The notes beneath the pieces were generated by a model. The model was given only the letters and a program-made list of their open reading frames with translations. It was not told the origin of the DNA and ran no database searches. The position numbers and the translations under genes are program-made. Shown here piece by piece: positions 314-44,189 of a stretch of DNA of 64,000 nt. The DNA comes from Deuterostichococcus epilithicus (lineage: Eukaryota > Chlorophyta > Trebouxiophyceae > Prasiolales > Stichococcaceae), in the NCBI GenBank assembly GCA_033439295.1, contig JAVTLE010000003.1, forward strand, positions 2,294,001 through 2,358,000, read 5' to 3'. Every line of letters starts with the position of its first letter. Positions within the stretch are counted from its first letter, which is position 1.

Positions 314-3300
314 TCACCGCTCCTCCTCCCAGTAGGCGTCCATGACGGGCTGCTCGAACTCCTCACAGATGACGACGCCCTCGATGGCGGGCACACTGCG
401 GCCGCCGCGGATGTCGAAGCCCGCCATTGCGTGCGCGAAGTCGACGCCCAGCCCCCGGCACACTGCAGCCATGCGCGGGTAGCGCAGGTGCACCGTGCCT
501 GCGGGGTGTGTTGCGGAGGGCATCGGAGGGCATCGTGACCCTGAGCAAGAGAGCACCTCGTCCGGTGTGTCTGCCGCTGCATCAGTCCGCCGCCAGGCGC
601 AGGCGGCACAGGCACAGCGTGCAATCCCAGAGTTTGTTGAGGGGAATTCCCAGAAATGCCTGCAGAGGCCGCAGCAGGAGCCCTATCGAGTTCGAAGATC
701 GTTTTGCTCCATACACCGAAGGAATGCTGCAGCGCGCCGGCACTGACACACAGCCCGTGACAGCAAGTGCGCCTGGGCGGTCATCACGCTGAGGGTGCAG
801 GGCAGCCCGGTAGAGCCGCCGATCGGCCTGACAGTATGCCACGCACAGGCTGCTGGTGACAGCAGCGTGTTTGGGCCATGATGAGCGCCTGCAGCATCGC
901 TATGAGAGCCTGAAGCGCGGCACAAGGCCGCACATGGCAGGAGGACACAGCCAGGACCGAGCCGCATCGCTTCGCACCTGCCGGCAGCTGCGAGGCGTAG
1001 GGCGGCACATTGACATTGCCGCGCTCATTCTTGGGCACGACTCCGTCGACGGCCACCGCCGGCGCCCATGCAGCCGTCTGCCACTCGCCGTACAGCCGGG
1101 TGACGCCCTCCCCGCCGCCCTTTTTACCCCCCTCCTCCTCCTCGAACGCGCTGGCCGGCGGCGCAAACTGTGTGCGCAGGGCTAAAAGGCGTCACGAGGC
1201 TGGGGGGGGTCGCAGCAGGTTCGCCAGCTTCCGAAAGAGAGGCGGCCTGTCAGATGCGCGGCTGTGCTCAACTCCGCAGCCTCTCGCCCTGGCGTCTGCA
1301 GCCTGCCGCTCGGCACACACGACCACGGCTCTCGACGTCCAGACACTCTCCAGCTGCACGAGCCATGAGATATCAGGCCTCTAGGGACCCACCCTGGTCG
1401 TTCTCCAGGTCTAGGGGCGGAGTCCAAGTTGCTCGCCTTGCAGCTGCCCTGTCCCACGCCTATGGCAGGGCGCAGCAGCGCTTTGCGGTGACGTCAGACG
1501 CAGTTTTCGCAGGAGGGGTCTGGAAACTCAAATCCATAAGCCCTGGCATCTACAGCCCACCTCCTCGTCCTCAAGGTCCAGGGGCTGGTCCCTGCCCGAC
1601 GGCTTGTAGCCGCGCTTTTTAACTTCTTTGGCAGGACGCGGCAGCTCCTCTGGCAGCACCTCTCGCCCGCTCTTCATCTTCCACGCCTCCGCGGTGTGCA
1701 GCTCCGCCAGGTGCTCCCGCAGGTAGTAGGCCTCGCCCCTGCTACAGAGAGGTTCCGAAGCAGTAGTGAGACAAGTTAATTGCAGGCTGGCAGTGGAGCC
1801 GTCTCTTGCCTGGGAGCCGTCCCTTGTCTGCTGATGAGCAGGCAGAGGCGCAACTAAGCTACATCAGATGTTTCTCCGCAGACAAGAAACATCTGATGTG
1901 TGCATGTTTGCAGCTCTGCCCGCTGCTGCTGCAAGCAGTGTGCCACAGCCCTCTCAGAGAGGTGCTGCAGCTCCTGAAAGCAGGCAGCTCGGGCTTTCGT
2001 CAAAAGCCATTTTCAGCAATTTCTCGGTACTCCGAATTCTCAGCGCTAGCTACAGTAGGCACATAGTGCTGCCCGCTGACCACCCTCCCTAGAAATAAAT
2101 ACTAATACAAACAGCATCAAAGGAGGCATGACAAGCATGGAAATGTTGACCGAGCGCTCTCCAAAGGCTGAGAACCTGCACAACAGCTCCCTTGTGCAGG
2201 CTGATGCTCTCAAGGGCCAGCGCGCAGGTAGCGCGGCACGTGGGGCCAGCTTCTTGTCTGCAAGTGATGTGTTTGTCTACAATTCTATGGTCTAGAGCCA
2301 AGAGCCAAAAACCAGAAACTGCCGCGCGCCTGTGCAGGCCGACGCTCTTGGTGCCGGGCGCCAGCGCGCTGTAGCGCGGCACATGGCGGTGCAGCACGTA
2401 CAGCGGGTGTTTCTTGAAGCCTTCCAAAGTGGTTGGCAGCGCTGCCCGGTCGCGGACCGCCTGCTCCCCTAGCTCGGCGTCCTCCCTGTAGCATAACAGT
2501 GTCCGTGCTGAAGCACGCATTTGGGGGAAATCCCTGCAGGGTGGCCAGCAGCGTCTGTCCGTTTGCGGAACCCCAACTGCTCCCCCAGCTCCGCATGATG
2601 TCCTCCCTATCGCAAAAGCAGTACGTATGGACAAGCATTGAAGCCGATATCCGATCAGCCCCCTGCCACACGGCCAGCGGTGCAATGTGTACTAGGGTGT
2701 CGGCGCAGGCGCAGGCTGTGACGGTGGGTCGAGCCTCATTGACAGGACATCGGTGCACCCAAGTCGCTGCTTTGCAAGGTCTCCGAGCCACATGTTCGTT
2801 TCGGGTGCCTGCTTGCTGGTGAGCACGCCTGGCAGTGCATTGCCTGCCGTGATCAGGCACAGCTGCTCCGCACCTGACGGCCCGCATCTCCTGTGCGCTC
2901 ATGGACGCCTTAGCAGCCTTCTTGAGGCGCCGAGCCAAGTCCCCGCCATCACCATGCGCCACCTGCAAGTTCGCACAAAGAGTTTGGATCACCATGCAGA
3001 GTGCTTCGCACGGGCAGCCTCCGTGCCGCCATGGCTGTGCACCACCGGCAAGCTCGCAACGACGAAGGCGTGTGCATCCCTGTGCAGAATGTCTCTGGCA
3101 GGACACCCTGCCGCCCCGGCTGCCCACCACCTGCCATTGGTGCTGCAAAGGCTGCCTGCCCAGCTGCTGCGCACGGTGCCGCCCACAGTGCTGGATGTCC
3201 GGTAGAGGTCAACGCGGGCGGGGCACATGATCAGAAGATGGCGCGGCTTGGCAGCGTGAGCTGCGGTGGACAGTGCCATGCTGGGTAGGAGACGCCCCTG

Positions 3301-6300
3301 CAGTGCAGGGACGCCTGACGGCCGCACCCGCATGCCTGCCGTCAGCAGGCTGCTGCCGGTCTGCCCGCCGCCCCCGACGCCGCCTCCCAGGGGCCCTGGG
3401 CCGCTGCCGTCAGCCACGGCAGCCGGCAGCCGCGCGGCGACCTCGCGGCTGCGCAGCGGCCGCAGCGTCTGTTCCCACCAGCCGCCGACGCGCCACTTCT
3501 CCACCGCCAGCAGCGACGGCACATACCTGGACGATGAACACACGAAAGACTCAAGATGACATAACCTCTCATCTCACAGCCTGCTGACTCCGGCATGTAT
3601 TCGCGAGTGGCACGCGGGAATGAGGAAGGCAAGCCGGGCCGGGCTAGACTGTCTGCTGCAGATGTGGACGATGTGGCCAGATGCAGCAACGGCAGAGGGA
3701 ACTCTGAAACCTCCCCGAGCCAGGCTCCAACAGGGGATCTTGATGAACCAGACCATGCCCACAGGCCACTTGGGAACTCACAGCTGCAGTGATGAATTTG
3801 GGTGTCCAACACAAAAGAGGAGAAGGCTGGCAGCCCGCACCTTTGGGTGACGTCCTTGGCGCCGCCATTCGCAAAGGCCACCACGTAAGCCAGCGGCACC
3901 ACTCCCGACACCGCCTCGCCCACCTGAAGGCCAGCCGAGAGTGATTGACAGAAAAAACAAAATAATCTTTCATGATGCGAAAAATCAAGGTCGTCGTGTC
4001 TGGCGCAGGCACTTTCCGCCAGTAACAAAGACGTCTGCGACCACCCGGCCTGCGCACAAGACTGATGGCGATGTGCAGCACAACGCAACTGAACCGGATA
4101 GCGGCAACCAAAAGCAATGCTGAAGTTCGAAAGACGCTCGGGAAGCTGACGACAGTTGGGAATTTCCTCACCTAGAAAAAGCAACGAGCGTCAACCAGCA
4201 CGCAACAGGCAGGGAGCAGACCCGGCGCCGCCTGTTGCACCAGCCGCTTACAGGGCGCAATGCCTGACCCATATTCACCCGCATCATCATGTTGCAGCCA
4301 GCGACACGGAGCAAGTACAAGGCGGGGTGACAGACCTTGTGGGGCTCGTCGCACCAGCCGTCTACAGGGTGCACTGCCGCCCAGCGCCCTGTGTCCGAGG
4401 GACCGCAGTAGACTTCCGCCCAGGTGGCGCCGCCGCCCGCGGCGGCGCGTGCCGCGCTCCTGCCGCGCCCCCAGGCGACACCAGTCTATTTGTGAGGGAC
4501 ACAGACCACGTTTCGCAAGAGTTGCAGCCCTCCGGGTTTGTGTTGCATGTGTGATCGCCCTGCAGCCGAGCTTGCGCACCGTCGAACGAGCCCGGTCTGT
4601 GCTGCGCCCGTGCGAGGCGGCACCGGGGGTGGTACACACAACGGCAGCACAGCTGCTTGGCGTGGCGTCTTGACAGCAGCAAGGGGCGGCAAGCAGGTCA
4701 GACCGCAGCAACAGCACATATTTACAACGAACCACCTGCTGGCGTCCGAGCGACGCAGGCGGTGGTGGCCCAGACGCCGCGCCGCCGATATCCAGGTCCC
4801 GGCTGGCTGACGCTGCGCCGGTGGCCATCATCTGCGCGATCAGCAGCCTGAGTAGACTCGCATTCACTTGCACGCAGGAACAGCGCTGCAGTGCCGGCGA
4901 GCACTGTTGATTGCACCTCCTCTGAGATGCATGGTGCTTGCAAGGGTGCCTGCCAAATATCAGACAGACAGAACGCTTGAGCCCACCCACAGACAGCCCC
5001 CAGCGTCTGCCCCTGGAACCATGACTGCAATGAGCAGCCTGCAGCGCAGGGGTTGCCACCCACCGCCATGGCCAGCTGCTGCTCGAACTCGTCGTCGCCT
5101 CGCCGGCGCCGGCTGCTTTCGGAGCGGAGCAGGCTCGGACCCTCGTCTGCGGCGCCTGCCGGCTGCTGGGCCTCCTCCTGGCCCTTGCGCTTCCTGCCCC
5201 TGCCGCCGCCTCTGCCGCCATCGCGCCCGCCGCCGCGCCCGCCGCGTGGTGCTGCCGGCCCCACAGCGCCTGCTGCCGCTTCGCTGCCGGACGCCGCGCC
5301 CGCCGCTGCTTTGCCGCCAGGGACCGCGGCAGCGGCTTTGGCGGGCCGCCGCCCGGGCTGCTGCGCCAGCTGGCGCTTCTGAGACGGCAACGAGGGCTTG
5401 CGGCCTTTGCCAGATGGAGAGTCCCTATCGACCCCGGGCCGCAGCGGCAGCGGCTCCAGCGCCCTGCGCAGGCGAGCCGCCAAGCTGAACTCACATGCAA
5501 AATTGCAGCCGACTGCAGTGCAATCCAGTATGCATGCAACGGTTTCGCACATCACGAGCTGCCTGAATGCTGATGCAGCCTTGCACGGCATGTGGCTCAC
5601 ACGACGGAGCCACGAGCAGCAATAAAAGGTCGGTTGGGAACTTGATGCTGTAGTTCAGGCACAAAACAGTCGAAGCAGTGGGGAAAGAGGCTCGACCATT
5701 TGAAGTGCAGCACCTCGTCAGGCGCACGAGGCAGCCGGCCGCACGCAGGAGCGCCACGAGGAGCACAGCCAGCTCCTCGGGGGCGCCCTCCCGCTGCGCC
5801 GCCGCTTCCTGCAGCCGCTCCAGCAGCGACACCAGCCCGACGGCGCCGCCGCCGCCGCCGCGCCGCCGCAGCGCCGTCGGCAGATCGTCTGGCAGCTCCG
5901 GCTCCTGAGCCATGGAACAAGGTGCTTCGTTATATCGACCAGCCGTTCAACTCCTGACGGTTGATCTGAGCTGAGGATCCTGGGCCGGCGGGGTGACCTT
6001 GGCGTGCAGAAGCGTGTGGCGGCGGCTCCTTCTGACAATGGCACCTTAGAGGCTGCACCATGATCATTGTGCTGGAGTTTGCAGCACGATGTGAAGGTGC
6101 AGTGATCAAGGTGCCAGTGTGCTGCAACCTCCAGCCCCATGAACAGCACGAACAGCACGAACCTCTTGCGACCGGCATGCAGCAACTGTCCGGCGTGCAG
6201 ACAGGCCGTCATCGGTCAGTCAACGAACTGGGTCGAGGAGATGTCGTGCAGGTTTGATGGCACAGTTCATTTCAGAGGACCTTCTCCAAAAGATGTGCTT

Positions 6301-13734: not shown

Positions 13735-13769
<35 letters not shown>

Positions 13770-17087: not shown

Positions 17088-20000
17088 ATGAATTGCCATG
17101 CCAGACCTCTCAAATTACAATTGGATGCGACTCTACACGTATCGTGCCGTGTGCTGCCCTGCCGGCGCCAACTCAGGCAGTGCTTCAACCTGAGACAGTG
17201 CCGCAGCGCACAGCTGTCGCAGAGGTGCAGACCACTTGTTTCTTCAGCCATCAAGGAGGAAAGAGAGGATCAAGAAGGTGCACGCTTGACTTTCTACACC
17301 AGCAGAGTTGCAGCAGCGCTGATGCAGGGTGCAAACATGCAAACATGCCCGCATGCTCATGCGCTGACTACACCGCTGGAGCATGTTGTGTGCCCTCTGA
17401 GACCGTTCTTCGCCTCGCACAGGGCTGTATGACAAGGACATCGACCGCTGGAACAAGCGCCAGCTCGAGGATGAGCTGCGGGACCCCAGGAACTTCGTGG
17501 AGTGAGCCCAACCACGTGCAGCACGCTGAAACAGCGCTGAAAGCTTGTCGATCGCTGTGCGCACGCTGCTGTGGCGAGTCTCCGTGTTGGGTCATTTATT
17601 GTTGAGCGCTGATGCCGACAGGTACCTTGTACCACGGCCGGTACGACGGCTACTTCTTGGCGCGGCCGCGGTGTCCTGCCTCATCGCATCCGCGCTGGCA
17701 GTCACGCAGCTCATCCAGGTATACACTGCACTCGACATCCCTGCCACAAGCGCGAGGTATAACGTGGAGCTGAGCAGTGTGTGACCTCGTTTCAGCCAAG
17801 CTGGTCGGTTGGAGAGGGTCGAACTGCAAGCGGCCTTGCAAGTGACAGCTCTGCCGGCACAGGACGCCTCTCTGGGCTTACCCATTGCCGGCGGTGACAC
17901 GGCAAAGACGCTGGCGATAGACCTGGCCGGCTTTGCGTCGTTCGGGGCGCTGTTCTCGCGGGAGGCCACTGCGCGCGAGCGCCGCATCGTGCAGCGGCAG
18001 CAGGTGGGATCCTCCGTCGCGTCCAGTCTGAGCCAGCTAGCGGATGGCATGTCGAGACGATGCATCACGCTGTCTCGATGTCGGTTTCCCTGCCGATCTG
18101 TTTCCAGCAGCTCTTGCATCATTTGACTCCAGTTCACCCTCCATTTTTCCCCATTTCGGCGCCATGCACAATGGCGACGTCGCACCCGGTCACCATGCTG
18201 CGGCAGTGGGTGCACGACCCTGCGTGGCCGTGGCACGGCGTGTCTGGCCATTGCAGGAGCGAACCACACACGCACGACCGGCGCAAGGGCTGAGTCGTGT
18301 GTCGGAAACCGGCGCAGCTGCGGGAGAAGCAGATCGCGTTTGGCGACCGGGACGTGTACTACAATGACGAGGGGCGCAAGATGTCGCGCCTGCGGGAGGT
18401 GGATGCCGACTGGGTCCTGCGGCGGCTGCAGCGCTGGGGCCAGCGCGACAACATGCCCTTCATCGGGCCGAAGAAGGTGCGCCCGGCGCACAGTTCAAGG
18501 TGTCGGATGTTCGGCTGCGGCGCTGGGTCAGCAAGGGGAACGAACGAGAGCCTTTTGGGCCAGCGCGGCAGTGTGCCCTCCATCGGCTCCTGGAAGGCGG
18601 ACGAAGGGAGATGCTGACTGGGTGCCGCGGCAGCTGCAGCGCTGAGGCCCGCTCCACAAACATGCCCTTCGTCGGTCTGAAGCATGCGAGGTGGGCTCAT
18701 GGCCCTGGGCTTGGGCGCTCAGCGGCACACACTCGCTGGTAGTTTGCGGGCGTCCATTGTCGCGGGGATGGCAGCGGCAGCCGCCTGTTGATGGGGCGTG
18801 GAGACGCGGGAGGGAGGGGAGGGCTGGCCCCTCGCTGCAATCCTCGTGCTGTGTGCCTTGCCCTTCCGATGCACTGATCGCCTCTCGGCCCTGCTCCCAT
18901 CCCCCGTCCCCCGCAGCCACGCCACCACCCAAACGCCTGCATGCTTCACCAGTAATGCCATTTCTGATGACAATGCACACCTCCACCGACAGGGCGCTGT
19001 CCTGCAGCGGCTGGTGCAAGAGGCTGCGCCCATGAGCGCGGTGGAGGTCGGCGGCATGTGCGGCTACTCCGCAATCCTGATGGCGCAGGCGCTGCCGCCG
19101 GGTGAGCCACCGGCTGCAGCCGGCCATTGCGCTGAGATTGGTCTTATCTAGATCCACACGTGCAGGATGTGGCGCCTGCTACCAAGCGCCGTTGCAGCGG
19201 CGGTAGGCAGACGCGACCCCTCTGACCCATCCTCGGAAGCGCATAAGGGTGGCAGCGCCCCTCGAATGACATTCGTCTGCGCAGAATTGGACCTCGTATT
19301 GCACTGGGCCTCGGCGTTGGACGCTGAGCGATCGTTTGTTGATTGAACTAACCGGCACACACACCTACTCGTGGCTACATAGGTGTGGCATGCGCACGCA
19401 TGAGGCGTGGGCGTGAAAAGCCGGCCGTCTGCAAGTGCGCAGCCAGGCGCTTGCCGCCCCGGCGGGCGGCAGGCTGCTGGGGGCAGCCTCGAGGAAGTAG
19501 GGTGGGGAACAAAGGGGGTGGAAGTACCAGGAGGCAGGCGCTCACCGGAAGGTTTAGGGTTTAGGAGCTGCATGCGCAACGCCGCCGGTCAGGCATGCCA
19601 TCGCACGCGACGCGTGTTTGCAGCTGACGGGCAGATGTTGCGTGTGTGCAGGCGCAAAGCTGGTGAGTTTGGAAAAGGACTGGAAGTGGGCGCTCGCGGG
19701 TAAGCGGTTCCTGTGGCAGGCGCGCGGCGGGCGGCCCGACAGCGGCATGGAAGCGGTCGACATGCGGATAGGAGACGCCATCCGCGAGCTGCCCAGGCTA
19801 CAGGTACGGGCCCGCGGAGCCAGGGCTCATTGGTCTTTCGCAGCGTCACACGGTGGCTCGGGTGAATGCCTAGGGGGGTGTGTAAGGGCAGCAGCGCCAG
19901 CTTTGAGGTTCACCTTGCAGACCACGGAGGAGGGTCTGCGGGAGCTGTGTGCATCTCCACAGGCCCGCGCGCGGATTGCAGCCTGTAGGGATGTGATGTG

Positions 20001-20428
20001 TGCGGCGGTTGACGCTTGGCGCTGAAGGGTGGGGCGCCCAAACCGGCACAATGGCACACCTAAAGCCTAAACCCTGCAGGTGGCCGTCGCGCCTTGCGGT
20101 CCGGCCAGACGCCCGAGAGAGTCTCTCGACCACGCCCCTTATGCATTCCGCCTGGGTGTTTCCCGCGCAGGGGCGCATCGACTTCCTGTTCATCGACGGG
20201 CTGCCGCGCGAGTATCTGGACTATTTGAAAGCGGCAGAGCCGCGGCTGGCGCCGGGCGCCGTCGTCGTCGCGGACAACGCGGGCGTGTTCGCGGACGGCG
20301 GGCTGAAACCCTACCTCGAGTACGTGCGAGGCAGCGGGAAGTACGAGTCGCGGTTCGAGGCGTCCACCCTGGAGTGGCGGGACGATGTCCCCGATGGCCT
20401 GGAGGTGTCAACATTCCTTGGGGCTTGA
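17088..20428 (+). CDS. Membrane-anchored class I O-methyltransferase (catechol/caffeoyl-CoA type), plastid-type N-terminus
   Basis: Eight exons join in frame: 17088-17277, 17423-17501, 17622-17718, about 17815-18003, 18318-18476, 18993-19101, 19652-19803 and 20171-20428, giving about 410 residues. The N-terminus is Arg/Cys/Ser/Leu-rich and nearly free of acids, like a transit peptide. Then come DRWNKRQLEDELRDP and a transmembrane helix (LLLGAAAVSCLIASALAV). A conserved linker (FGDRDVYYNDEGRKMSRL) precedes the Rossmann methyltransferase core: SAM motif I VEVGGMCGYSAIL, VSLEKD, IDFLFIDGLPREYL and GAVVVADNA, ending VRGSGKYESRFEAS. The FIDG Asp and ADN Asp-Asn match the Mg2+ ligands of catechol O-methyltransferase. 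It probably methylates a phenolic or other hydroxyl at a plastid membrane; the substrate is unknown. The exon 4 acceptor is the least certain edge. Confidence 0.88.
18510..18690 (+). repeat. Two degenerate copies of the preceding O-methyltransferase exon, inside its intron
   Basis: The end of exon 18318-18476 (DADWVLRRLQRWGQ...NMPFIGPKK) is echoed twice downstream. Copy 1 spans about 18510-18597 (GGGCCAGCGCG, CCATCGGC). Copy 2 spans about 18610-18690 (GACTGGGTGCCGCGGCAGC, ACATGCCCTTC). Copy 2 has an in-frame TGA where the exon has TGG and an altered donor, so neither looks usable as an alternative exon. Confidence 0.8.
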
Positions 20429-24500: not shown

Positions 24501-27500
24501 GTTTTGCCGCTGGAGTTGGAAGACCCATCCGCCGGCGGCTCGAAACCTGCGGCGCCGCCACCGGCCCGCTGCGCGGCGGCTGGCGACAGGGGGCTGAGGT
24601 CGGCGCTGCCGTACATCCCGTCGCCGCTGCGGCGCAGCCTGCAGCCGAGGCAGCGTTGGCGCTCAGGGCTCAGGGCGATGGAAGGCATGGGAAAAGTCGC
24701 ATTGAGGGGGTGAGCGCCATGACCAGGCCTGGACCCCTGCTGCGGCGCCCTGCTGAGGAGTTTGCTCGAGGATGGCTGGCACAGATGGCGCTGCCGCCGC
24801 ATCCGGCTGCGGCCGACCTGCCATGGCGGCGGCAATGGCGGCCCAGGGGTTGACGGTAACCGTGGTGCTCAAGACGATCCATGCCCCAGCAAGCCGGCCT
24901 TACCTGTCCGGCGTGCTGAAGGAGTCGCTCGAGCCGCCGCGGTGGTGGGCGCGGCCGCTGCCGGGCGACGACAGGTCCGCCAGCTCAGAGGACGTGATGC
25001 TCCAGGAGCCAGAGCCGGAAGACAGGGAGTCGCCGCGGAAGAGTGCCGAGCCGCCGGGCGCCCGCGCCGGCGAAAGCGGCCGCTGCATGCCTGCAACATG
25101 TCATTGAGATGCTTCAGGTGCAGGGTTGACACACGCTTCAAGTGCAGGAGGCGGAGCGCCAAGGGCAAATGGCTCCGCATGGGCCCACAGGGCGAGGAAG
25201 CTGGATGCAGCAGCGAGGCTTCAGTCCGGCAGCAGCAGCCGGTGCCGGAGCACCCTGGCTCTGGCTGTCGCTCCAAGCCGCGACCGCTGAGCTTCAGATG
25301 CGGAGGCCTCGAAGCTGGGGATTGCCCCCGATGCCGCCCCCACCGGCGCGCCATGAGACTCGCGACAAGCCACCGCTCCGTGAAAACCTAGACCCTGAAT
25401 GTAAGCGGCGCACCTCGAGCGACCTCGCGATAGTCGCGCACGCGGCTGCTGGCGCCGCTGGCGCCGCTGCCGCAGGAGGAGGCGCTGTCCAGGCTGTCCA
25501 GGCTGGCGGTGCTGCCGCCGCGGCGGAAGCGCTGCAGCCCCCCTGGAGCGGGGCTGCCGCTGGCCCACAGGTCCGCGGCGAGCGCATCCGACGGCTCGCC
25601 CTCTGCGCCGAGACCGCACACATGGCATCTCAGATAGGCTACATTGGCTGCATTCAGTCCAATACGTGGATCGGGATGGGCGTCGGTGGGTCAGTAGAGC
25701 GCTTCATGTCTGCTGCACTATCTGGAGCGCGGCAGTGAGGGCGACGCCGGCGTCTGGTGATGTGAGGACCGGCGCGGGGGCGGCACATGCGGCATCACGG
25801 CCCAAGTGCAGACTGCAGCAGCCATTTCGAATTGGCGGTGATCGCAATGACCCCTTGGGCTCGCGGGTTGGACTGTGCGCACCCGCGAGCGAGGCGAGGC
25901 TGCCGACGCTGTCCATGCTGGTCAGGCTGCCGCTGGAGCCGTCGCGCCGGTGGTGCCGCCTGCTGCGGGGCCCGGGCGAGCGGCTCAGCGCCGTCGGATC
26001 GCCGTCCCTGCAAAGTGCACAGAGTGAGCGGCGTTCAAAGTGATGGTCGGCATTGCTCTCCCTCGTTCTGCGATGCTTGTTCTCGAGAGTGACGCTCGGG
26101 GTCGATTCCGGGCAGGCCTCCGACCCCGTCAGGGACATGGCCCGGCCTCTGAATGCGTGTTCAAACTCCAACAGCGCATCGCAAAGTGTGCTGAAGCGGG
26201 TAAGGGCAAGCGTAATTCCAAGCTGACATGACAGGGGCCGCTGGCCTGCCTCGCCAACCTGCTGACACACAGAGGGGCCTGTGTCGCAGCTGCCGCCGTG
26301 CCTTCCTGGGGGCGCCTATGTGGCGCATTACCCTCTCAAGCTGCCAGTTTGACAACAGATGACGAGTCTCCCATGCTTCGATCGAGGGAAGTGCCAAGAC
26401 GTCCGTCAGAGCCTGGTTACCGGGCTGAACTCGTAGTAACCCACCTGCTGGACGCCGCACTGGAGGCCAGGCTGGCGCCGCTGCCTGCGCGCCGCAGAGC
26501 GGGCCGCAGCGGCGGCGGCGATAGCTCCGCATCGTACGGGTCCACATGCTCGTAGCCCCGCACCTGCAGTCACGTCGGTCGGCCACTCAGCTATCAGAAC
26601 GCTCAAGATGACTGCATGTGGCCTGGGGCTTTCAGGTGCCCAGCATGCAGAGCCATACGTCCGCAGACAGCCGCACACACAAAGTTCCTCCGTATGTGTC
26701 GATTCCAGTCCTCAACCTGCCAGGGCGAGCAATGACGGTCTTGCTGCTGTGCACAGATGCCAGAACACCGCTGTCTGGGACAAGGTTGCAGCAGAGCAGC
26801 CATTGCTGCCCTGGTAGGACTACCCGAGCGGGTCGTCGATGAACAGCAGGCAGGCGCACATGCATGCTGGCGACGGAGGGCGCCGCTGAGCGGCAAGAGG
26901 CTGTGCATGAAACCCTGTACCCTAAACCAGGCAGGCGCACATGCATGCTGGCGACGGAGGATGCCGCCGAGCGGCGGGAGGCGGTGCTGCGGGCGGAGCC
27001 CACGCTGGAGACGCTGGCGGCGCTGCTGCCGCTGCGCCGGTGCCGCCGCCGGTCCGGCGCTGGCTGCACGGCCGGGAGCAGCACGTGCGAGTCATTGGAG
27101 GCTCCATGTGGCAGCAGCTTGGCTAGAGAGGGTTGCTGGGCACTGACTGGAAGCATGGTCTGGCGGCATGCTTCCTGGCTCAGGCTGCCGGCGGAGGCAG
27201 GCTCCAGCATGCAGGGTATGTGCCCGAGCACCAATCGGCTCAATTTTCCGGACGAGAGACAGCACTTGTGCGGCACCTCATGCTCATGCAAGCTGCGGCC
27301 CTCACCTGCTCATCGCGGTGGCGGCTGCCGCTGACGCTGCCCGCCTGGCTGCCCGCTGCGCTGGGGGCACGGCGCACGCCGCGGGGCGACAGAGCCGCCG
27401 GCACGTCTTTCACCGGCGGCGGCGGCCGCGGGCGGCGCTCGGGGCTGCCCTTCCGGCCGCGCTCCGGGCTGCCAGAGGCCGCTGGTTCCCCATCGACGCG

Positions 27501-30768: not shown

Positions 30769-33444
30769 GTCGCACGCACATGCGCGAACAGCCGCTTGCA
30801 CTCGCCGGCAGCACCGCAGCAGCCGCGGCGCGCATTGGTGACGGCAGCACAGCCAGAGGTAATTGCGTGCTTGCAGTGCCTTCCCCGGACGTTGCCCCCT
30901 CATCAGCGCTCCGACTACCAGACGTCGCGATCAGCCAAGAGACTTTGCCGCCAACATGCCGCCGCCAAGCTACGGCTGCCGCCCGCAGCAGTTCACTGCT
31001 GGCACTGACCTCAAGCAACGCAGCTGAGGGCGCACGACTGGCACGCATCCTGCGCTGCAGACTGCTCACATTCGCACATTCGGGCACATGTCTACAACAT
31101 GGGCGCTTTGCAGGGCGTCGACCCAAATGCTGGGGACCAGACGCCGCTGGAGAAGCAGGCTGGCCTTTTTGAGGCGCCACCGGCGGGCACCACGCCGCAC
31201 GCGGGTGCTGCGCCGGGCGCCTCGACGGCGTCGTCGGCCGCAGCGCCAGCAGAGCCCGAGGGCCCCTCTGCAGAGGAGCTGAAGGTGAGCAGCGCCCCTG
31301 CCGGCAGGCGGCTTGCCTTGCGTGGAGCGAGGACTGAACTGCGCCCGCCATGCTGCCCTACTCGTCCGGAATACTTGTCAAAACCAGGCGTTGTGCACCT
31401 GGAGGGACATCAGCAGCAGCAGCTGCTCAGAGGTCGCTTGCGCAGCGGCCGCGGCAGTCCGCGGCCCGGGCACCCTACATGGCCTGCCCGGATCTCCATG
31501 CATAGAGCATTGGCCCTGCCACCCCGGCAGGCAATGCTGCTGGACTCGCTGTACGGCACGGAGCGGGGGCTGTCGGCTTCCTCGGAGCTGCGCGGCGAGA
31601 TCAGCGAGCTCATCACGCAGCTGGAGGCGGCCAACCCCTCGCAGGCAGTTGAGGTGAGGGCACTCGCTGGTCAGCGTGCTGCCTGTTGTGTGAGGGAGGA
31701 TCCTGGTTGCACGGCCAGACGTGAGGGGGAAGCATCATCCGGCTTCAGGCAGCCGGCCCATTGCGTCCTGCTGAGGGAGCGACGCCGCCACCCAGCGCTG
31801 TGGCACCTGCGGCGGTGCAGGCAGAGGCATGGGTCCAACGGGCATGGTTCCGGACCACGTGGGCAGCTGGAAGCTGTGCGCATGGGTGCCATCGGAGGGG
31901 GCGAGCCACCTGCAGTTTGGGGGCCCAGGATCCACCTGCTGCCAACCATTGACAAGATTTTTTGCACATCTTCTCTGACGTGCTCTTGCAGGATGACAAG
32001 CTCAGCGGCGAGTGGAAGCTTGTCTACACCTCCAACAGCGAGCTGTTTGCGCTGCTGGCCATCAGCAAGCTGCCGTTCGTGACGGTCGGCGACATCACCC
32101 AGACCATCGACGCCGCCGCCGGCACCGTCACCAACAAGGCGCGTCGCGTTGCTCCCGCAATCCGAAGCTCGCAGCATTGCAAGAAATGCTCCGGAGAGTC
32201 TGCCGACATTCAGCAAGCCAAACCAACTCGATGCTTGTCAGTCAGCGGTGCACAGCCTGCCATTCATCGGCTGCCGGCCGTCGCTTTGGTCCGACCTCGG
32301 CCCCACCTGCGCAGCACGGAAGGTCCATTTGTGCGGCTTCATAAACCCTCGTGTCGTGAACCCCCATGTCATGAACCCTGATGTCTCCGAACCTGCAGGT
32401 GGCGCTCATGGACAGCGTGACACGGACATCTTTCTCCTCCACCGCCAACTTCGAAGTCCGCAGCCCCAAGCTGCTGAACGTGCGCACCGCGCCACACTGC
32501 AAGTCCAAGGGGACGCCCCTGCACGCTAGAGGCCGGGCACAGCGGGACGGACGTCGTCTAGACTGCAGGTGCAAGCTGTGGAGATGGCACCACACAGGGA
32601 AGGGGTGTACGCGTCACGCTGCCGGGGGCGCTCCTGAGCAGCGCTCCTCGTGCGCGCTGCAGATCAAGTTCGTGCGGGGGGCGCTGGCGACGCCGCAGCT
32701 GCTGGCGGACATCGACCTGCCCCAGTCCGTCAGCCTGCTTGGCCAGACGGTGGACCTGACCAACCTGCGCGACGCGCTGGCGCCGGCGCGCCGCGGCCTG
32801 CAGGGCGCCATCTCGCAGGTACTATTTCAGGGTTTAGGGTCCCCTGAAGCCTCCGCGCAGTCGTACTCGTCTCGGCTTCGGAGTTATCCAGGCACACTGC
32901 CTCCGCTTCGAATGGGCACTGCATGACCTGCACATGTGGACGTGCTCAACTTATTTTTGTTTCGACTCACGCTGGGGCCGCCTGCAAGCGCATTGCACTT
33001 GCAGCAGAGCTGGCGAATCTGAAACCCACACAATCGCTTGGACGCAAGCGCCGCTGTGCCTGTGGCGCAGGCCGCCTCATTCCTGTCGCGGCAGCCGGAC
33101 CTCAGCTTCGACATCCCGGAGCAGGCGCGTGCCGAGTCGTGGCTGCTCACCACATTCCTGGACGAGGTGAGTCTTGCTGGCGACGGATAACTGCGCCGCG
33201 ATCTGCGCTGTGCATCGTCAGGTGTGGCGGCGGCAGATGCCCTTGCACGCTCATTTCGCTGGTTCTCTCCTGCCTCTGCTTCCAGGAAGCAGTGCTGGAT
33301 GCGTGTGTCCTTCCTTGGCATTGCAGGACACCCGCGTGGCGCGTGGCGATGGCGGCAGCGTCTTCGTGCTCGTTAAGGAGCCGGGCTCCGCATCGACCGC
33401 CGGCGACGGCTACTCCAATACGGCAGCGGCGCAGAACGGCAACA

Positions 33445-33481
<37 letters not shown>

Positions 33482-35003: not shown

Positions 35004-38000
35004 TCACTGCGGCGGCGACAGCGTCTTTAGCGCCTTGATGATGGCACGATGCAGCGTCGGCGTTGCCGCCACAATGCCGCGGTCCAGGTCGAGCCACCTG
35101 CATCAGCGGCAACGAAAAGTAAGTGCGCCCGCAGCTGTGACACAGCTTGGATTCGCCAGCTCTACGCTGGTAGAGACAACTGACCTCAACATGAGCGGCG
35201 ATGGCGGCGCAGGCCGGCACCCACCTTAAATCCACAGCCTTCAGAGAAAGCAGGAGGCAGGACCTCCAAGAAGCAGGGCTCAGCAATAAGCAGCAGGCGC
35301 GGCGCAGACCTGCCGCGGCTGAAGTCGAGCGGTGCGCCGCCGGCGTCGGAGATTGCGCCGCCGGCCTCCGTCACAATGACGGCGCCGGCGGCGTGGTCCC
35401 AGATCTTCTCCCTGTAGCTGGCTGCCGGGAAGCGCAGGAAGAGCGACGCGTCGCCCCTTGACAGCGCGCCTGGGTCATGCAGTCACATTCGGCTCAATTG
35501 CCAACAGACGGCTGTGCTGCGAGAAAAGTCTCTAAAGACTGAATTCGCCTTCTCCCCCTCAGGCATCTGCCAAGCATGTGTGGGTGTCCCTCCGCCCAGG
35601 CCATCTTCCTGTGGCAGGGTTGACACCACAGCTGGATAGGGCGGTTGACGTCACACACTGTCTGCCGCACTTGCTCCTTGAAGCTCTCCCCCAGGCGACA
35701 GGCTGCCATTTGCCTCACCGTATTTGGCCTGGCTGTCGAGGCGCAGCGGCGCCGCAGTGATGCCGACCGCGTCGCTGAGGCGCCCCGTGAAATCGTGGTC
35801 GGAGTGCTTGCTCTCAAAGGACTCCATGAACCGCGCCTCGCGGAAGTCTGCCGAGTCCGCCACCTGTATCCGCTCCCCGGGGACGCCCTCGCCTACAGCG
35901 CAAGTAAAACGAATCAGGTGTATGGTTCATGATGTAGGGTTAGGGCCGGGGTGCCGGGACAGTCACAGGCAGCAGGTGGCCGGCATGCCCGCCCTGCATT
36001 GAGGTGGCCCAGTTGAAAGGGCCAGCCTGAGTATGCAAAACCAGGTCGGTACTGCCGCGCTACTGCAGGGCAACGTGCTGTGAATGGGCCGGCGCCACGA
36101 TCTCGACACGCAGCGGCGGCAGCAACGGACTGGCTGAACGACCCAGATGCAGCTACAAAGCAAAACCCCTTAGCAGCAAGGAAGCAGGTGCATTCCCGGT
36201 CGACGCTGGCGGCGCAAGCGAGGCTTCTCGCCTGTACAGCCGCTGCCCGCGCGCGCAACCGCTGCCGAGGCCGGCTTACTTGCCGCTACCTTGCCAGAGC
36301 TGCATCGCCGCGGCTGGATGCCCCTCCCAGTCTGCTCACCTGTCAGGGGGCCGACGGCGGCGCCGCAGCCCTGCTGCGCGGTGAACAGCACGCCGATGCC
36401 ATCGCTGCCGACACGGCCCGCCGCCTCGGCGCCGCCGTCGTCAGGCGTCAGCCGCGCGCGGGGCATGTTGGGGCAGCCCAGCACGCCCAGCACCACCTGC
36501 GGAACACAAAACCCATCGCCCACAGCCGCCTGGCGTCAGCCTTCCTCCTCCAGACATTGACACAGAAGGACGATCGCAGAGGTGCAGGTTGCACACAGCT
36601 GGCGGGCAGCCAGGTGATGGCGTCACGCAGCCATCCTGTTCAGCGCCCTGATGCGCCGTGCATCATGCGCCTGCGTGCCTGCCTTGCCGCCGTGGCAAGC
36701 CCGTGTGACCACCGCATGCTCGCCTCGCCCAGCTGCCGGGACTGTCCCCGAGACACTCGGCTCTCACTGAGACGTGGACTGAGCGCATGTCGCTGTCAAA
36801 TGCTTCATGACAGATGCGAATCAAGAAAATCCACCTGGCCGTCCTGCAGCATGCCCAGGCAGATGGCGTACTGCCGCAGGCCGACGAAGCCGCGGGTGCC
36901 GTCTATGGGGTCCAGCACCCAGTGCCGCCCTGAGGCGCCGCCCTCCGAGCCGCCTGTGTCTACGAGCTCCAGCACCTGCGGGTGCGTGTGTAGAAACGCT
37001 TTGCTGTTTCAGCTGTTCAGCTGGAGGCTGACACGGGCAGCTGCGCCGTGGCAGCAGCATGTCCAGATCCGTCCAGGGACTCGGTGGCTCGTAGGAGCTG
37101 AGCAGCGGCCTGGTCCCAGAAGAGTTTGTGCTAGGCCGCACAGGCGCGCTTGACAATCATGCATGCTGTGCGTCCCTCACGCCAGCAAGGGTCGATGCAC
37201 GCATGGTGTCTTGCCGCCCGCCGGCATCCTCACTCAATCATACCAGAGGGCGGCAGCGAGCCCAGACCCATTGCATGGCACACAGTCATGGACGAGACTG
37301 CGCACTGCGAGCGCCGCCTGCTGCCCACACCTGGCCCTCTGTCAGATCGCCTCCAGCGCCCAGTTCCTGTCGCAGCGTGGAGTTCACCAGCTCGGTGATG
37401 CGCGCCGTCATGGCGCCGCCGCCGTCTGCCCTGCAGCAGACCGGTGCCCAGGCGATGAGGCTCAAGAGCGCATGGATTAACAGACTACTCCTCGAGCTGC
37501 TGCCAGGAGTGGAACGGGTGCCAGACGCAACGCCGAAGCGCAAACGGCATATGCCGAGGACGAGGGCGACTGGCTGAGCTCATGCATGCTGCTGCCGCCG
37601 CCGCCACAGGGTTGCACCGCCCAATTTCCCACCTGAGATCTGCAGAGTCCTCCTCCGCGACCATCTGCAGGGGCACGTCCGGGAAGGACTGCCGCAGGCA
37701 CCACGCCACCACCGCCTGCGCGCCTGCAACGTCAGCGGAAGGGCAGCGTTTACGAACTGTCGCGCGTTGGCCGCCGTGCACCATGGTGTCATGTCGTTCA
37801 TTGCATGACCGACACGCGTGAAATATGCAAATCAGGCAACACAGCCCGCTCGCCGTAGTCTGCGATCGTCACGGGCGAGGCATCGTCCTTGGCCGTCTTC
37901 TCTGAGCTCTTCAGCTGCAGCTGCACCGTCTGCGCACGGAAGCAAAGACCTGACTACATGAAGCTGCAGCAGAATAGTCATCGGCAACGCCTACAGAGGT

Positions 38001-38844: not shown

Positions 38845-41800
38845 ATGGCCGCGGTTGGTCTCCTGTCCTCACTTCCCGCGCCGAAGAGGGAGTACGCAGC
38901 TCCGGAGCCAGCTGCACCATCAAAGCCAGCTCCGACTGCTGCCGGGCCGCGCATCACGGCAGAGGCGCCGCCCTACGGCTCCGCGGAGCGTCGGCACTAT
39001 GTGCCCAGGCGACCGTCCGACTTTGGCGATGGTGGTGCCTTCCCAGAGGTGATTTTGACAAAAGTCACTTGTGCTGCATCCACCTGCCAGGACGTGCTGA
39101 CAACCTTCTTTATTGTTATCTCCTCAAACTGCGTTCCTGCATGTCACAACTATCGCACCGGCATGCGGGATGCTGCCCCTGCCTTTCGGCTGCGCTCAAA
39201 AGTGCTGCCGCACCCGCGCGACAGGTGCACCTGCCGCAGTTCCCGCGCAACATGGGGCGCAAGGACAAGGCGGCAGCGAGCGGCGGCACGTTGGCGCTGG
39301 CGGTCGGCCCCAGCGGCGGCGCCAGTTACGACGCCATTGTGAAGCAGGGCGCGAACCGCGACAAGTGGGTCGCCAGTGACCACTCAGCGCTGGTGCCCAA
39401 GCTGGACAGCCTGAAGGACGAGGTAAGGAGTTTGGGGCCAATTCAGCTGGCCTGTGGCTGCTTGATCATCACGCCTCGATGCCAGGTGCGCCATGGCCAG
39501 GCAGCCTTGCGGAGGGCGCGCCGTATGCCTGGTCTCGCGGCGGCCGTGCAACGTGTGCAGACACATAACCTACAATGGGTCCTTGGGGGAGTGTTCGCAT
39601 CAGCACGCGCTCAATGTCTTCTGACAGCACTGCAACTCTTGTGTTTTCCGCCCTGCAGATGGCGCGGCCAGACGAGGAGGAGCTGGAAAAGACCAAGGCA
39701 GAGACCGCGGCGGCGCTCGGGCTGGTGGTCACCAACAAGATCGCGGCGTCGCAGCCCAAGAACCTGCCACAGCAGCCGGGGGCGCCCACATACATCAAGT
39801 ACACGCCCACGCAGCAGGGGCCCCAGTACAACAGCGGCGCCGCTCAGCGCATCATCAAGATGCAGGTGGGATGCTCGCCATCCTCTGACCAGCTGCATCC
39901 TGCCGCTCTGGTGGCAGTTGTGGCACCGTCTCGCAGCCTGAAGGTTGTCCGCATGCTGCCGGGGCTCGTCACATATACTTGGGTCTCGACTTGGGTCTTG
40001 TGTGTGCAGTGCGGCATGGCATCCCTGGTGGACCTGTGTTTGAGTGCCACACAGCACAAGCCCTTCACCGCCCGCCTTCCCTGCCGCTCCGCAGGACATG
40101 CCGATCGACCCGATGGAGCCGCCCAAGTTCCGGCACAAGAAGGTGCCGCGCGGCAGCGGCGACCCGCCGGTGCCCATCATGCACTCGCCGCCGCGGGCCA
40201 TCACTGTGAAGGACCAGCAGGACTGGAAGATCCCCCCCTGCATCTCCAACTGGAAGAACCCCAAGGTGAGTCCCTCCTGCGGTGCATCCTGTGGGGCGTC
40301 CTGAACCATATATCAAACATCTGGGTCGCAACACTGCTGAGACCCACCCTGCAATCCCTGCTGGACGAAACCCCAGAGCGCGCGCTCCCTCCCTGAGGCC
40401 AGGGGCAGGCCTCTCAAAACCCGTTCGACCCTCGGAACCTGCAGGGCTGGGAGGGCCCCCGCCCTGCACCTCCAACTGCAGGAACCCCAAGGCGTGCTGC
40501 AACATGGATTCACATGCTCTCCCGTGCGGCTGCAGGGGTACACCATCCCGCTGGACAAGCGGCTGGCGGCGGACGGCCGCGGGCTGCAGGAGGTGCAAAT
40601 CAACGACCAGTTCGCCAAGCTCACGGAGGCGCTGTACGTCGCCGAGTCCAAGGCCCGCGAGGCGGTGGACATGCGGCAGAAGGTGCGGCGGCGGCTCCCG
40701 GCGTCGGCGCCACATGTCGTGACGTGCCGTGCGGCGTGGCGGCAGGATGCTGGGCGCCCGCGTGCGCGTCCGCGTGCGCCGTCCCCACCGCTGAGCGACC
40801 CATCGCGTGCGTGCCCCACGCCCCGAACCCTTGCTGTGCAGGTTGTGCGGGAGCAGAAGCTGCGCGAGAAGGAGGCGAAGGAGGCGGAGCTCCGAGACCT
40901 GGCGGTGCGCGCCCGGCTGGAGCGTGCCGGGGCCGGCGGCAGCGCGGCGCCCGTGCCCGTCGCCGCCCGCGACGAGGGGTGCGTAGGGTTTAGGGTTTAG
41001 GGCCTCGCCTCCCCTGCCCCCTCGCCGCTTCCTGCACCGCTCCCGTGTGTGCGCAGGGGGGTCTGCAGGGTCGCGGGCCCTTGATGGAGCCTGCGGTTTC
41101 GGGCTTGGGTCTGGGGTCCGGGGTCTGGCCTGCATCGAGGCTGCGTCGGCGACGGCTGTGGCGGCTCCGCGCCCCCCCACCGCTGCCCGCAGCGCCTGTC
41201 ATGTCCAGTCATCGGGGTGCTGCACGACCGGGCATCCTGGCCCGGTGGCGCTGCATCACCGACGCGAGCGTGACAGGCTGGTGACCAGGGCTCCAGACCC
41301 CGCACGAGTTTCCAGTGGCTGCCCTCTGATCAAGCACCTCTGATCCAGGTTTGTTGCTGCAGGTACCTGCCGCCGCCGACGGCGGGCGGGGCGCCGCCGG
41401 CGTATGGGGAGGCGAACCGGCCGCCGCCGCCGCCCATGGCCGCGGCGTCGCCGCCGCGCGGCGAGCGGGAGAGCCGCGAGGAGCGGGAGGAGCGGCGCGC
41501 ACGCGAAGAGCTGCGCCGAGAGCGCCAGCGGTGTGCTTCAAAATGCCTTATTCCAAACTGCCTTTTTCTTGTTTGGGCCGACCTCGAAGGTCTTGAGGCT
41601 CGCCCCTCTTGGCGCTTGACAGCAGCAGTGCGCTCGCCAGGATCCTTGCGTTCGTTTCATAACTCAAACCTCGAACCTCCTCGCCCTCTTGAGAATGCCC
41701 AAGCATGGCAGGAGCTGCAGCGCGACCGCAAGGCGCTGCGCCGCGATCGCCAGCAGAGAGTTGAGGTTGGAGCGCCCCAGCTGCACCTGGACCAGCGTGC

Positions 41801-44189
41801 GTGCCGTCGAACTGCCGCTGTGGGAGCCCATATGGGGGGGGACTGACGGTGCCGCGAGCGCCCGGGGGCGACTGACGGTGCCGCGAGCGCCAGCCAGCGC
41901 CACGCTCAGCCAATGGTGCATTGTCAAGGAAAAGGCAGCATCGCCAGCGCCGTACTTGAGACATGACTGTGACACCCTGCTCTGCTGCATGGCCTGCGCA
42001 GCAGCGGGGTGCCGCAGTCCAGTGGGGGAGCCTGCCGATGCCATTCCGTGCCTCCAAACCTCCACACGACTCGTCTGGCACCTTGTGCACGCCGTCGTGG
42101 CCTCCGCCTGCCTCAAACCCTGCACCAACCATGTTGCAGATCGGTGCACTGCACTTCTGCAGCGAGCTAGAGTGCGGGAAGTCTGGGTGGAACCGCCGGA
42201 CACCGGGACGCCGTGGTCGATGGAAAGCGCAAGCCACTTGTCCAACATGATTTGTGCACCAGTTTACGGTTCTGCGATTCCCGCAGCGAGCGGGAGCGCG
42301 AGCGGCGGCTGGAGTCGCGGGACGCGCACGGCGGCAAGCGCTCCAAGCTCACGCGCGACCGCGACCGCGACATCTCCGAGAAGGTCGCCCTGGGGCAGGT
42401 GCGGGCCTGCGGCTCCAACTGTGAGGGTGAAAATATACTTCTGCACCCGCGGCACTGGGCCGACAGCAGCGCCGGGCGCCAGCGCCCCGCCCGGGTGTTG
42501 ATGCGGGTGTGCGGCCATGACTGCCCAATTTGTCAGTAAGGCAACTGCTGAAGGGCCGTCACGCAGGCAATCTGCAGCCCTTCCTGGCACCGGTGGCGTC
42601 TGCGTGTGATCAGAGTCAGGTGGTTACAGCAATGCAGCTGGCGATGGCTCCGATGTCGTCTGGACACGTGCCACCTCCAGGCAACAGTCTTCGCAGGGCC
42701 TAAGGGGCGCAGGCCAAGCCGACTTTGCGGGCTGGATGGCAGGTGCATGGCTGGGTCGAGGTGTTCGTGTGCCATTCAATGCACTGGTACTTGAGGGCAG
42801 GCAGTCCTCAGACAACGAAGAGCATATCCGATTCAGCAGCAGCCGCGCCACTCTGTGCAGGCTAAGGTTGGGGACGGCGGCGAGGCTATGCACGGCCAGT
42901 GGCTGTTGAAGCACATGATCCTATTTCCTGGTGCTTGTCATGGTTGAGCCCGATCCTCCTCTCTCCGATCGCCGAGGTGGTGCGCAGCAGCTGGCCGTGC
43001 GCCGCATGGCCAGCAGGCGTCGTGTCGAGCAGGCGGGCGGCTCCTGGTCCCCTCCGCCAGTGCGATCGTCACCGGGCTGTCATCGAAAGACAAAGGACAA
43101 ACCCCGCTGTGGGCGCGCGCTGCAGGCCAAGGTCGCGGGCGGCGGCGAGGCGATGTACGACCAGCGGCTGTTCAACCAGGAGGGCGGCATGGGGCACGGC
43201 CTGGTGGCGGAAGACTCGTACAACCTGTACGACAAGCCCATGTTTGCGGACCGCGGCACGGGGCAGCACCGCGCCAAGGCGGCCGCCGACGACGAGGACG
43301 GTGCGCAATTCCCCGGGTGTTCGCGTCTCGTGACGGCAGAGCGACAGCAGGGGATCCCAGTCTTGATGTTGTAGACTCGTGCTCCGGGTCGCAGGCGCCG
43401 CTGCCTGCCCACAGGAGCGATACCTACGCAGCCGTGCCGCCAGCGACGGCCGCGCCGCTGCGGCGGCTCCGCCCTTCGCCCGCATCCGCGCCCGTCGGGA
43501 CACGGAGTCCCGGGAAGCTGAAAGCGACGTTCCGTCCTCTCCGCGCAGGCGACGCCGACGGCGAGAACGCGCGGCGCTTCCGCCCTGACAAGGGCTTCCA
43601 CGGAGTGGACTACTCCGCGGCGGCGCAGGCGGCGGGCGACGGGCAGCCGGTGCAGTTTGAGCGGGACGCCCCAGAGGCCGACCCCTTCGGCCTGGACCAG
43701 TTTCTCACAGACGTGAGCGTCTTCTCACTCCTCCATGCGCCCTGCAGCACCTTTCCAGTCCTGTTCTCGGTCTCTTGCCTTCACTCCTGTTGTCTGCGTG
43801 TTCCGGAAACAGCCCGATCGGCATCTGCTACTACATGCAACATCATCGGGCGCATGCACCTGGGTTCGCCTTTCCTCGCATGCCATCACGCCGTCCCGCC
43901 GTGCCGCGCGGGTACGCAGCGGCAAGGGGAGGAAAGGCGGCACGCTGGACAACACTGGCGTCGGCGGCGCGAATGGCCAAGTTTGAGCTGCATGAAGGCG
44001 CATCTTGTGTGCTGATGCTGAAATGCCCGGATTGCACAGGTGCGGAGTGGCAAAGGGAAGAAGGGCGGCGCGCTGGATAGCATCGGCAAGGGCGGTGCGA
44101 TGGGCGCCGGCGGTGGTGGCGGCTCCTACGATGATTACGCCGGCAGCGGCTCCTCACGCCGCATGGACTTCCAACCTGGGCGCAATTGA
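38845..44189 (+). CDS. SKIP: SNW domain splicing factor / transcription coactivator (SNW1, SKIP, Prp45)
   Basis: SNW1/SKIP is a nuclear core component of the activated spliceosome (NTC-related) and a transcriptional coregulator. The start at 38845 gives MAAVGLLSSLPAPKREYAAP, followed by PPYGSAERRHYVPRRPSDFG. Successive exons carry HLPQFPRNMGR, SYDAIVKQGANRDKWV, GAPTYIKYTPTQQG, MDPPKF-like MEPPKFRHKKVPRGSGDPPV and the hallmark CISNWKNPKGYTIPLDKRLA. Then come QINDQFAKLTEALYVAE, a charged RE/KE helix, RSKLTRDRDRDISEKVALG, GGEAMYDQRLFNQEGGMGHG, ADPFGLDQFL and a Gly-rich plant-type C-terminus (SGKGKKGGALDSIGKGG) ending at TGA 44187-44189. Eleven exons or so; order and content match the plant SKIP family along the whole length. 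The intron at 41532-42277 holds a weak echo of the preceding exon end (about 41708-41755) and a 28-bp tandem repeat. Confidence 0.96.
41836..41891. repeat. 2 x 28-bp tandem repeat in an SNW1 intron
   Basis: Two adjacent near-identical units share the core ACTGACGGTGCCGCGAGCGC. It lies mid-intron and has no evident coding role. Confidence 0.85.
43912..43977 (+). repeat. Degenerate copy of the last SNW1 exon start, in the intron just upstream
   Basis: The stretch parallels 44040-44105 with a 128-bp offset. It would encode RSGKGRKGGTLDNTGVGG against RSGKGKKGGALDSIGKGG in the real exon. The real exon follows a normal CACAG acceptor. The copy has none at the matching place and runs into a stop soon after, so a fossil exon duplicate is more likely than a mutually exclusive exon. 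Confidence 0.75.

Follow-up and report, generated by a model that had tools for sequence, protein, structure and literature searches.

The stretch of Deuterostichococcus epilithicus DNA analysed here, 64 kb of contig C3 (positions 2294001-2358000) in a genome of 46.8 Mb and 21 contigs, is called the window below. It carries genes for XPC, an O-methyltransferase, a putative disordered protein and SNW1, and in each of them the sequence at an exon edge recurs inside the intron that touches that edge. Pfam families were found in three of five predicted protein pieces from the window, namely Rad4 BHD_1-3 (XPC), SKIP_SNW (SNW1) and Methyltransf_3/24 (O-methyltransferase). No family was found for the piece of the disordered-protein gene, at 26.9 kb, nor for the piece of a gene fused to XPC by the gene finder.

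The repeats were explored by banded local alignment of each stretch against its own neighbourhood, with copies 30 to 600 bp apart and a score of at least 40 required. The sample comprised 264 kb, made up of the 64-kb window, 150 kb from contigs C1, C4 and C5, and 50 kb from C6, C9 and C12, or ∼0.6% of the genome. Exon edges are the predictions of a self-trained hidden Markov gene finder run without protein evidence, which returned 494 exons and 458 introns (median intron length, 244 bp) with the splice consensus CAG/GTGCG at donors and TGCAG/G at acceptors (slashes mark the junction). This gene finder makes errors: neighbouring genes were fused and at least one acceptor was misplaced. In the window, the echoes of exon edges that the initial annotation had described were recovered in all four genes and in direct orientation. 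The distance between copies, given there as 80 to 210 bp, spans a slightly wider range of 81 to 265 bp, with arms of about 50 to 85 bp. The strong pairs are those of the O-methyltransferase (score 82), of the 26.9-kb gene (90) and of SNW1 at 43.1 kb (66); the three XPC pairs score 40 to 41, close to the background limit, and each is weak alone.

Over the whole sample, 52 direct pairs were found versus 1 inverted pair, and control offsets of +2, +4, +6 and +8 kb gave 1, 4, 1 and 0 direct pairs. The 52 pairs comprise 27 spaced exon-intron pairs, 3 tandem exon-intron pairs, 11 exon-exon, 5 intron-intron, 3 exon-intergenic and 3 intergenic pairs, so that the largest class (30 of 52) joins an exon edge to its own intron. 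Among the 27 spaced exon-intron pairs, 16 copy the start of an exon upstream and 11 copy the end of an exon downstream; 8 lie in the 64 kb of the window and 19 in the other 200 kb. The pattern thus extends beyond the window, which is not special in this respect. The arm end that faces the edge lies no more than 6 bp from the splice junction in 17 of the 27 pairs (3.7 under random placement, with a maximum of 8 in 300 trials) and no more than 15 bp from it in 22 (8.5 under random placement). At C5:14256 and window position 4181, the arms extend 25 and 42 bp into the intron. Non-tandem pairs join exon to intron in 27 cases and intron to intron in 2, although introns make up 142 kb of the sample and exons 81 kb; at a score of at least 30 these numbers are 48 and 6. 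Detection bias in favour of exon-intron pairs amounted in simulation to a factor of ∼1.6, on the assumption that exons evolve at a quarter of the neutral rate.

The specificity of the copies was assessed by aligning up to 60 bases of each exon edge with its own intron, with length-matched random introns, with its own intron reversed and with the intron on the other side of the exon. The set consisted of 383 introns of at least 60 bp between exons of at least 40 bp, which gives 766 edges. At a score of at least 30, the own intron was matched by 31 of 766 edges (14/383 on the donor side and 17/383 on the acceptor side), versus 4 of 15,320 random pairings (0/7,660 and 4/7,660). The reversed own intron gave 0/766, and the other-side intron gave 1/692 (0/346 and 1/346). 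The excess over random introns, whose absence the initial annotation had named as refuting the pattern, is therefore clear. About 1 in 25 of the sampled exon edges (∼4%) holds a detectable copy that is specific to the touching intron. This specificity argues against exon pieces being pasted nearby at random and for events that span the edge.

The intronic copies are decaying. Their identity to the exon edge ranges from 93% down to about 71%, and 11 of the 27 carry a frameshift or a stop codon, while 16 carry neither. Mismatches at codon positions 1, 2 and 3 number 61/443, 71/444 and 89/440 (0.138, 0.160 and 0.202), position 3 being the highest. Many copies retain GT or AG at the homologous position. 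In 20 of 23 comparisons, among which several projected sites are rough or masked, the real splice site scores higher than its copy. The features of the four window genes are collected in Table 1.

Table 1. Exon-edge copies and spacers in four genes of the window (window positions; d, distance between copies in bp; percentages are identities)
Gene	Feature	Position	Strand	Evidence or remark
XPC	Copy of end of exon 2330-2485, downstream intron	2193-2243	-	77% over 57 columns, d 138, score 41
XPC	Copied real exon end	2331-2386	-	Gene model, alignment; Rad4 BHD_1 match spans protein on both sides of exon end
XPC	Copy of start of exon 2330-2485 with acceptor, upstream intron	2548-2622	-	73%, d 112, score 40
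XPC	Copy of end of exon 4336-4485 with 42 bp of intron	4181-4264	-	71%, d 113, score 41
O-methyltransferase	Copied real exon end (exon 18318-18476)	18402-18473	+	Methyltransf_3/24 in same predicted gene
O-methyltransferase	Spacer between copies	18474-18609	+	Single-copy: only self-match in 46.8 Mb
O-methyltransferase	Weaker further copy of exon end, inside spacer	18557-18597	+	76% to 18437-18477
O-methyltransferase	Copy of exon end, downstream intron	18610-18682	+	84%, d 208, score 82
Disordered-protein gene	Copy of end of exon 26941-27063 with 13 bp of intron	26847-26906	-	90%, d 81, score 90
Disordered-protein gene	Spacer between copies	26907-26927	-	Degenerate telomere repeats
Disordered-protein gene	Copied real exon end with donor	26928-26987	-	Gene model, alignment
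SNW1	Copied real exon end (exon 40095-40265)	40213-40266	+	SKIP_SNW match spans protein on both sides of edge
SNW1	Weaker middle copy of exon end	40343-40377	+	71% to 40232-40266
SNW1	Copy of exon end, downstream intron	40437-40492	+	82%, d 224, score 59
SNW1	Copy of start of exon 43126-43300 with acceptor, upstream intron	42856-42913	+	83%, d 265, score 66
SNW1	Spacer before real exon start	42914-43120	+	Single-copy: only self-match in 46.8 Mb
SNW1	Copied real exon start	43121-43178	+	Gene model, alignment
SNW1	Copy of start of exon 44040-44112, upstream intron	43911-43972	+	76%, d 128, score 49
SNW1	Copied real exon start	44039-44100	+	Gene model, alignment

Some further features of these genes were observed. 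The predicted donor after XPC exon 2330-2485 (window 2320-2332, minus strand) reads CAG/GCGCGC, a possible GC-AG intron, and just past the last predicted XPC exon, window 276-298 reads CCTAAACCCT and then TGCAGG. The protein predicted for the O-methyltransferase gene (window 17125-20448) has a weak DUF3493 (Low psii accumulation1/Rep27) match near its N terminus, below the curated cutoff; the predicted gene is possibly two joined genes. Elsewhere, the tail of an exon and the head of its intron stand three times in tandem at locus L011 (349-642), in nearly identical copies that mark a very young duplication; the exon, which we take to resemble an SR splicing factor, gave no Pfam match with its 37-residue piece. 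At L003, in the C1 block near 19393-19643, the tail of an exon is tandemly triplicated in a gene with an IF3_N domain (translation initiation factor IF-3).

Data from across the sampled contigs support the proposal of a shared local process that duplicates exon edges together with their splice sites and makes introns longer. Intron gain, also raised by the initial annotation, was not supported. A new intron born by tandem duplication would match the preceding exon end in its last 70 bp, and at a score of at least 30 this signature was found in 2 of 383 introns; the reciprocal comparison of exon start with the first 70 bp of the intron gave 0 of 383. Neither candidate stands. The apparent new 90-bp intron at C1:35875 is an error of the gene finder, as the sequence runs on into a later exon. 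The gene encodes ribosomal protein S19e (Pfam), with the exon matching up to position 122 of 137, and a short exon ∼375 bp downstream could supply the rest, its 20 amino acids alone giving no Pfam match. At the SNW1 candidate (40265), the echo stops 44 bp short of the acceptor. The supported outcome is the growth of existing introns, which under the account favoured below would bring a replaced splice-site context and no new intron.

Telomere-type repeats contribute a second feature of the exon edges. The unit TTTAGGG makes the arrays at chromosome ends, and its exact double unit is also found inside contigs: TTTAGGGTTTAGGG occurs in the end arrays of C1 and C3 and at internal positions, with 619 hits in total versus 0 for the reversed control. 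On C3, the region 2616291-2618009 has telomere-repeat blocks at 2616291 and 2616528 and then from 2617787 to the contig end. In the 264-kb sample, 20 tracts scored at least 11, versus 0 in one dinucleotide shuffle and 1 to 7 for six control units. All 13 tracts scoring at least 13 are intronic. Of these, 7 follow a donor at no more than 15 bp in sense orientation and 3 precede an acceptor at no more than 20 bp in antisense orientation, with cutoffs that were picked after the list was seen. Single heptamers near donors stand out only weakly (11 introns versus up to 8 for heptamers of the same composition); the signal resides in tracts of about two units or more. Intronic tracts of this size lie at window positions 40983-41002, 47634-47652, 19550-19565, 20058-20075 and 32824-32840, and those at 40983-41002 and 32824-32840 follow immediately on donors.

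The orientation bias is also seen genome-wide. After the donor-like motif AGGTGNG there are 64 sense versus 31 antisense rows (62 tracts; P = 0.002), and before the acceptor-like motif TGCAGG there are 84 antisense versus 33 sense rows. At least 10 of the 84 rows coincide with places of sense AGGTGNG rows and 3 of the 33 are one tract; after removal of this overlap, the acceptor bias is 74 versus 31 (P = 3e-5). About half of the AGGTGNG sites (134/287) are predicted donors. Coding-like sequence lies upstream of 17 of 20 fetched donor-type tract hits; the corresponding shares are 93% for predicted donors and 17% for the remaining AGGTGNG sites. Telomere tracts thus hug splice sites and are oriented outward from the exon. 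As for flanking copies, the exon end is copied beyond the tract at 2 of the 20 fetched donor-adjacent tracts (L042 and L044), versus 7 of 383 donor edges (score at least 50; P = 0.05). Direct flanks with a score of at least 40 were found at 5 of 39 tracts of a first sample, versus 2.4% of random intron positions, with two of the five belonging to one tandem array. A causal tie between telomere tracts and duplications is only suggestive, and telomere tracts as general spacer content are not supported, as they occur in 2 of 31 spacers.

Most pairs are, in our view, best explained by duplication with filler, and a minority by tandem duplication. In the former, short direct duplications across splice junctions would recur when a staggered break at an exon edge is repaired or re-synthesised with errors, an account to which we give about even chances. 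A 3′ end running out of the exon at its splice site would acquire filler, sometimes telomere-type repeats; the extended end would re-join 30 to 85 bp back inside the exon and then be copied out again into the old intron. The layout left would be exon-X-spacer-X-old intron, mirrored at acceptors, where X is ∼30 to 85 bp of exon edge, usually with its splice site. The first copy on the donor side, or the last on the acceptor side, would still splice, while the remaining copy, together with the filler, would turn into intron. The extra copy would be tolerated because it is spliced out, and the gene would survive because that first or last copy still splices. Such re-joining would account for the layout, the direction, the own-edge rule and the outward orientation of the telomere tracts. 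Direct repeats flanking a nonhomologous insert, as staggered-break repair with filler requires, are what the pairs display: their orientation is direct, they are specific to their own edge, X ends near the junction, most spacers tested are unlike their flanks, and the intronic copies decay. The break, the enzyme and the targeting are inferred.

Several points weigh against this account. Random breakage predicts many pairs in intron interiors, but these are nearly absent; exon edges must therefore be what the process targets. This targeting step is missing from every model, including the favoured one, and the sparing of intron interiors is explained by neither filler nor tandem duplication. In 3 of the 27 pairs (C4:886, C4:1030 and C4:31856), X starts 25 to 41 bp inside the exon, which the layout does not predict, and the old splice site would be intact at birth and should compete. 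Among the 30 exon-intron pairs, the 27 spaced ones (spacers of 21 to 322 bp) are accompanied by 3 tandem arrays, at C4:40349 (93%, three copies at 120 bp), C1:19393 (81%, three copies at 104 bp) and C9:4648 (72%). One spaced pair, C4:19989, retains similarity beside its left arm (z = 3.7), and at L042 each of the two copies is followed by telomere-like sequence, an arrangement more in keeping with a tandem unit. Finally, the count of spacers with a telomere tract, 2 of 31, was reached in 50 of 500 random intron draws and in 148 of 500 draws abutting an edge.

Plain tandem duplication, with a unit of exon tail plus intron head, would produce the same arrangement if selection kept the exon part recognisable while the intron part decayed, up to twice as fast, into an apparent spacer. 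It describes the three arrays, in all of which the repeated unit is exon tail plus intron head, is favoured by L042 as well, and accounts for own-edge specificity and for the intron-intron pairs, 5 of 5 of which have 10 bp or less between copies. Residual similarity beside the arms, on the same diagonal, was measured in 28 spaced pairs (26 exon-intron and 2 exon-intergenic; spacers of 15 to 300 bp). The mean z values were 0.05 (left side) and −0.24 (right side), and in 27 of the 28 pairs there was no residue of an intron part at z > 3. The 10 exon-intron pairs of 85 to 93% identity, in which an intron part would have diverged at most ∼2-fold as much, all gave z values of 1.7 or lower, with low power for short spacers (21 to 33 bp). 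In seven three-copy loci, the two spacers are alike in two young arrays (z = 29 and 9.7) and unlike in the five older loci (z = −1.4 to 1.4). All four spacers searched against the whole genome, the extent of that search, match only themselves. The spacers of two of the youngest pairs, that of the disordered-protein gene and C1 block 35933-35964, are degenerate TTTAGGG repeats, a telomere-like filler. The lack of similarity beside the arms, the unlike spacers of the older three-copy loci and the single-copy spacers speak for duplication with filler in most of the pairs; tandem duplication as the source of the whole set is possible, though on the unlikely side. The tandem genomic duplication invoked by the initial annotation as a route thus fits the three arrays, and does not fit the 27 of 30 pairs that are spaced and mostly without similarity to their flanks.

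A mobile element or introner inserting beside splice sites with a very long target-site duplication would also leave X-insert-X at a preferred place. We consider this very improbable, given that the four spacers searched are single-copy, with no mobile spacer family among them, that spacer lengths vary from 21 to 322 bp and that copies of 30 to 85 bp far exceed the target-site duplications of 3 to 9 bp that PMC9860276 gives for introners. The copies could instead be functional, whether they serve as alternative ends of the exon, act as decoy splice sites or are remnants of exon duplications retained for a regulatory role, and the retention of GT/AG by many of them and of an intact frame by 16 of 27 would suit this. 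With 11 of 27 broken in frame, the old site weaker in 20 of 23 and matches that span exon edges instead of whole exons, we regard function as quite improbable. An artefact of GC-rich coding sequence or of the gene finder was considered because the blocks are 58 to 63% G+C and the predicted exons 69%, some pairs lie near the score limit and the gene-finder errors are real. Chance and composition are refuted by the controls (inverted pairs, far offsets and random introns), which gave counts near zero. Specificity for the touching intron also speaks against an artefact, as do the Pfam domains found in three of the four window genes and in two of the three exons tested at C1:35875, C1:19393 and C4:40349 (two of four exon pieces from outside the window matched, S19e and IF3_N). 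An artefact is thus extremely improbable.

Telomere capping is a lead within the favoured break-and-filler account, not an explanation of the whole set. In its strong form, splice junctions would be a preferred target of break repair: broken exon ends would be capped outward by telomerase-type synthesis, with TTTAGGG leaving donors and CCCTAAA arriving at acceptors, re-joining with an overhang would duplicate the edge, and the telomere DNA would supply splice context, so that introns grow from their ends. We hold this strong form to be unlikely. Selection for splicing could also keep a G-strand context at donors and a C-strand context at acceptors. Hybrids between spliced mRNA and DNA would end exactly at exon edges, and, speculatively, such RNA:DNA hybrids are a possible reason for the aim at exon edges.

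The data suggest that introns in this genome grow by short local duplications across splice sites. The lengthening of introns and the changing of their ends are little documented, and here ∼4% of sampled edges are accompanied by a fossil of that edge in an earlier state, so that a single genome lets the process be traced stepwise. Genuine targeting of exon edges would require DNA damage or its repair to sense the exon structure of the transcript, and would connect splicing with genome change in a new way. Such sensing could be tested concretely on the telomere tracts at splice sites. Among the titles listed in literature searches, none names exon-edge copies with telomere tracts.

Among known systems, the tandem-duplication route of intron gain outlined in PMC3443670 shares the local direct duplication that includes splice-site sequence, with the extra copy spliced out. 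There, the duplication lies within an exon and a new intron arises. In the present genome, it is an edge already in place that is copied, with no confirmed case of precise gain, and unrelated sequence stands between most copies. The tandem duplication described for a potato RdRp gene (PMC4974935) likewise crosses an intron-exon boundary and inherits splice signals. It is, however, one recent tandem case that made a new intron, in contrast with about 30 edges in 264 kb here, mostly spaced and with longer introns as the result. The intron gains of Daphnia ascribed to staggered double-strand-break repair (PMC3443670) also have an insert flanked by short direct repeats, whereas the repeats here are about 30 to 85 bp and the inserts lie at existing exon edges.

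Mammalian interstitial telomeric insertions at break sites (PMC2246262) resemble the present tracts in that telomere repeats are inserted into chromosomes. According to Table 1 of that study, a minority carry a duplication (6 of 130 rodent and 4 of 25 primate loci); here, the tracts hug splice sites in outward orientation, and 2 of 20 fetched donor-adjacent tracts have flanking copies. Introners, reported in PMC9860276 mainly from fast-evolving lineages such as green algae, share the genome-wide reshaping of introns, but the process described here involves no repeated element, as judged from the four single-copy spacers. It differs from these known relatives in acting on existing exon edges, in its long repeats and in spacers that are unrelated to their flanks.

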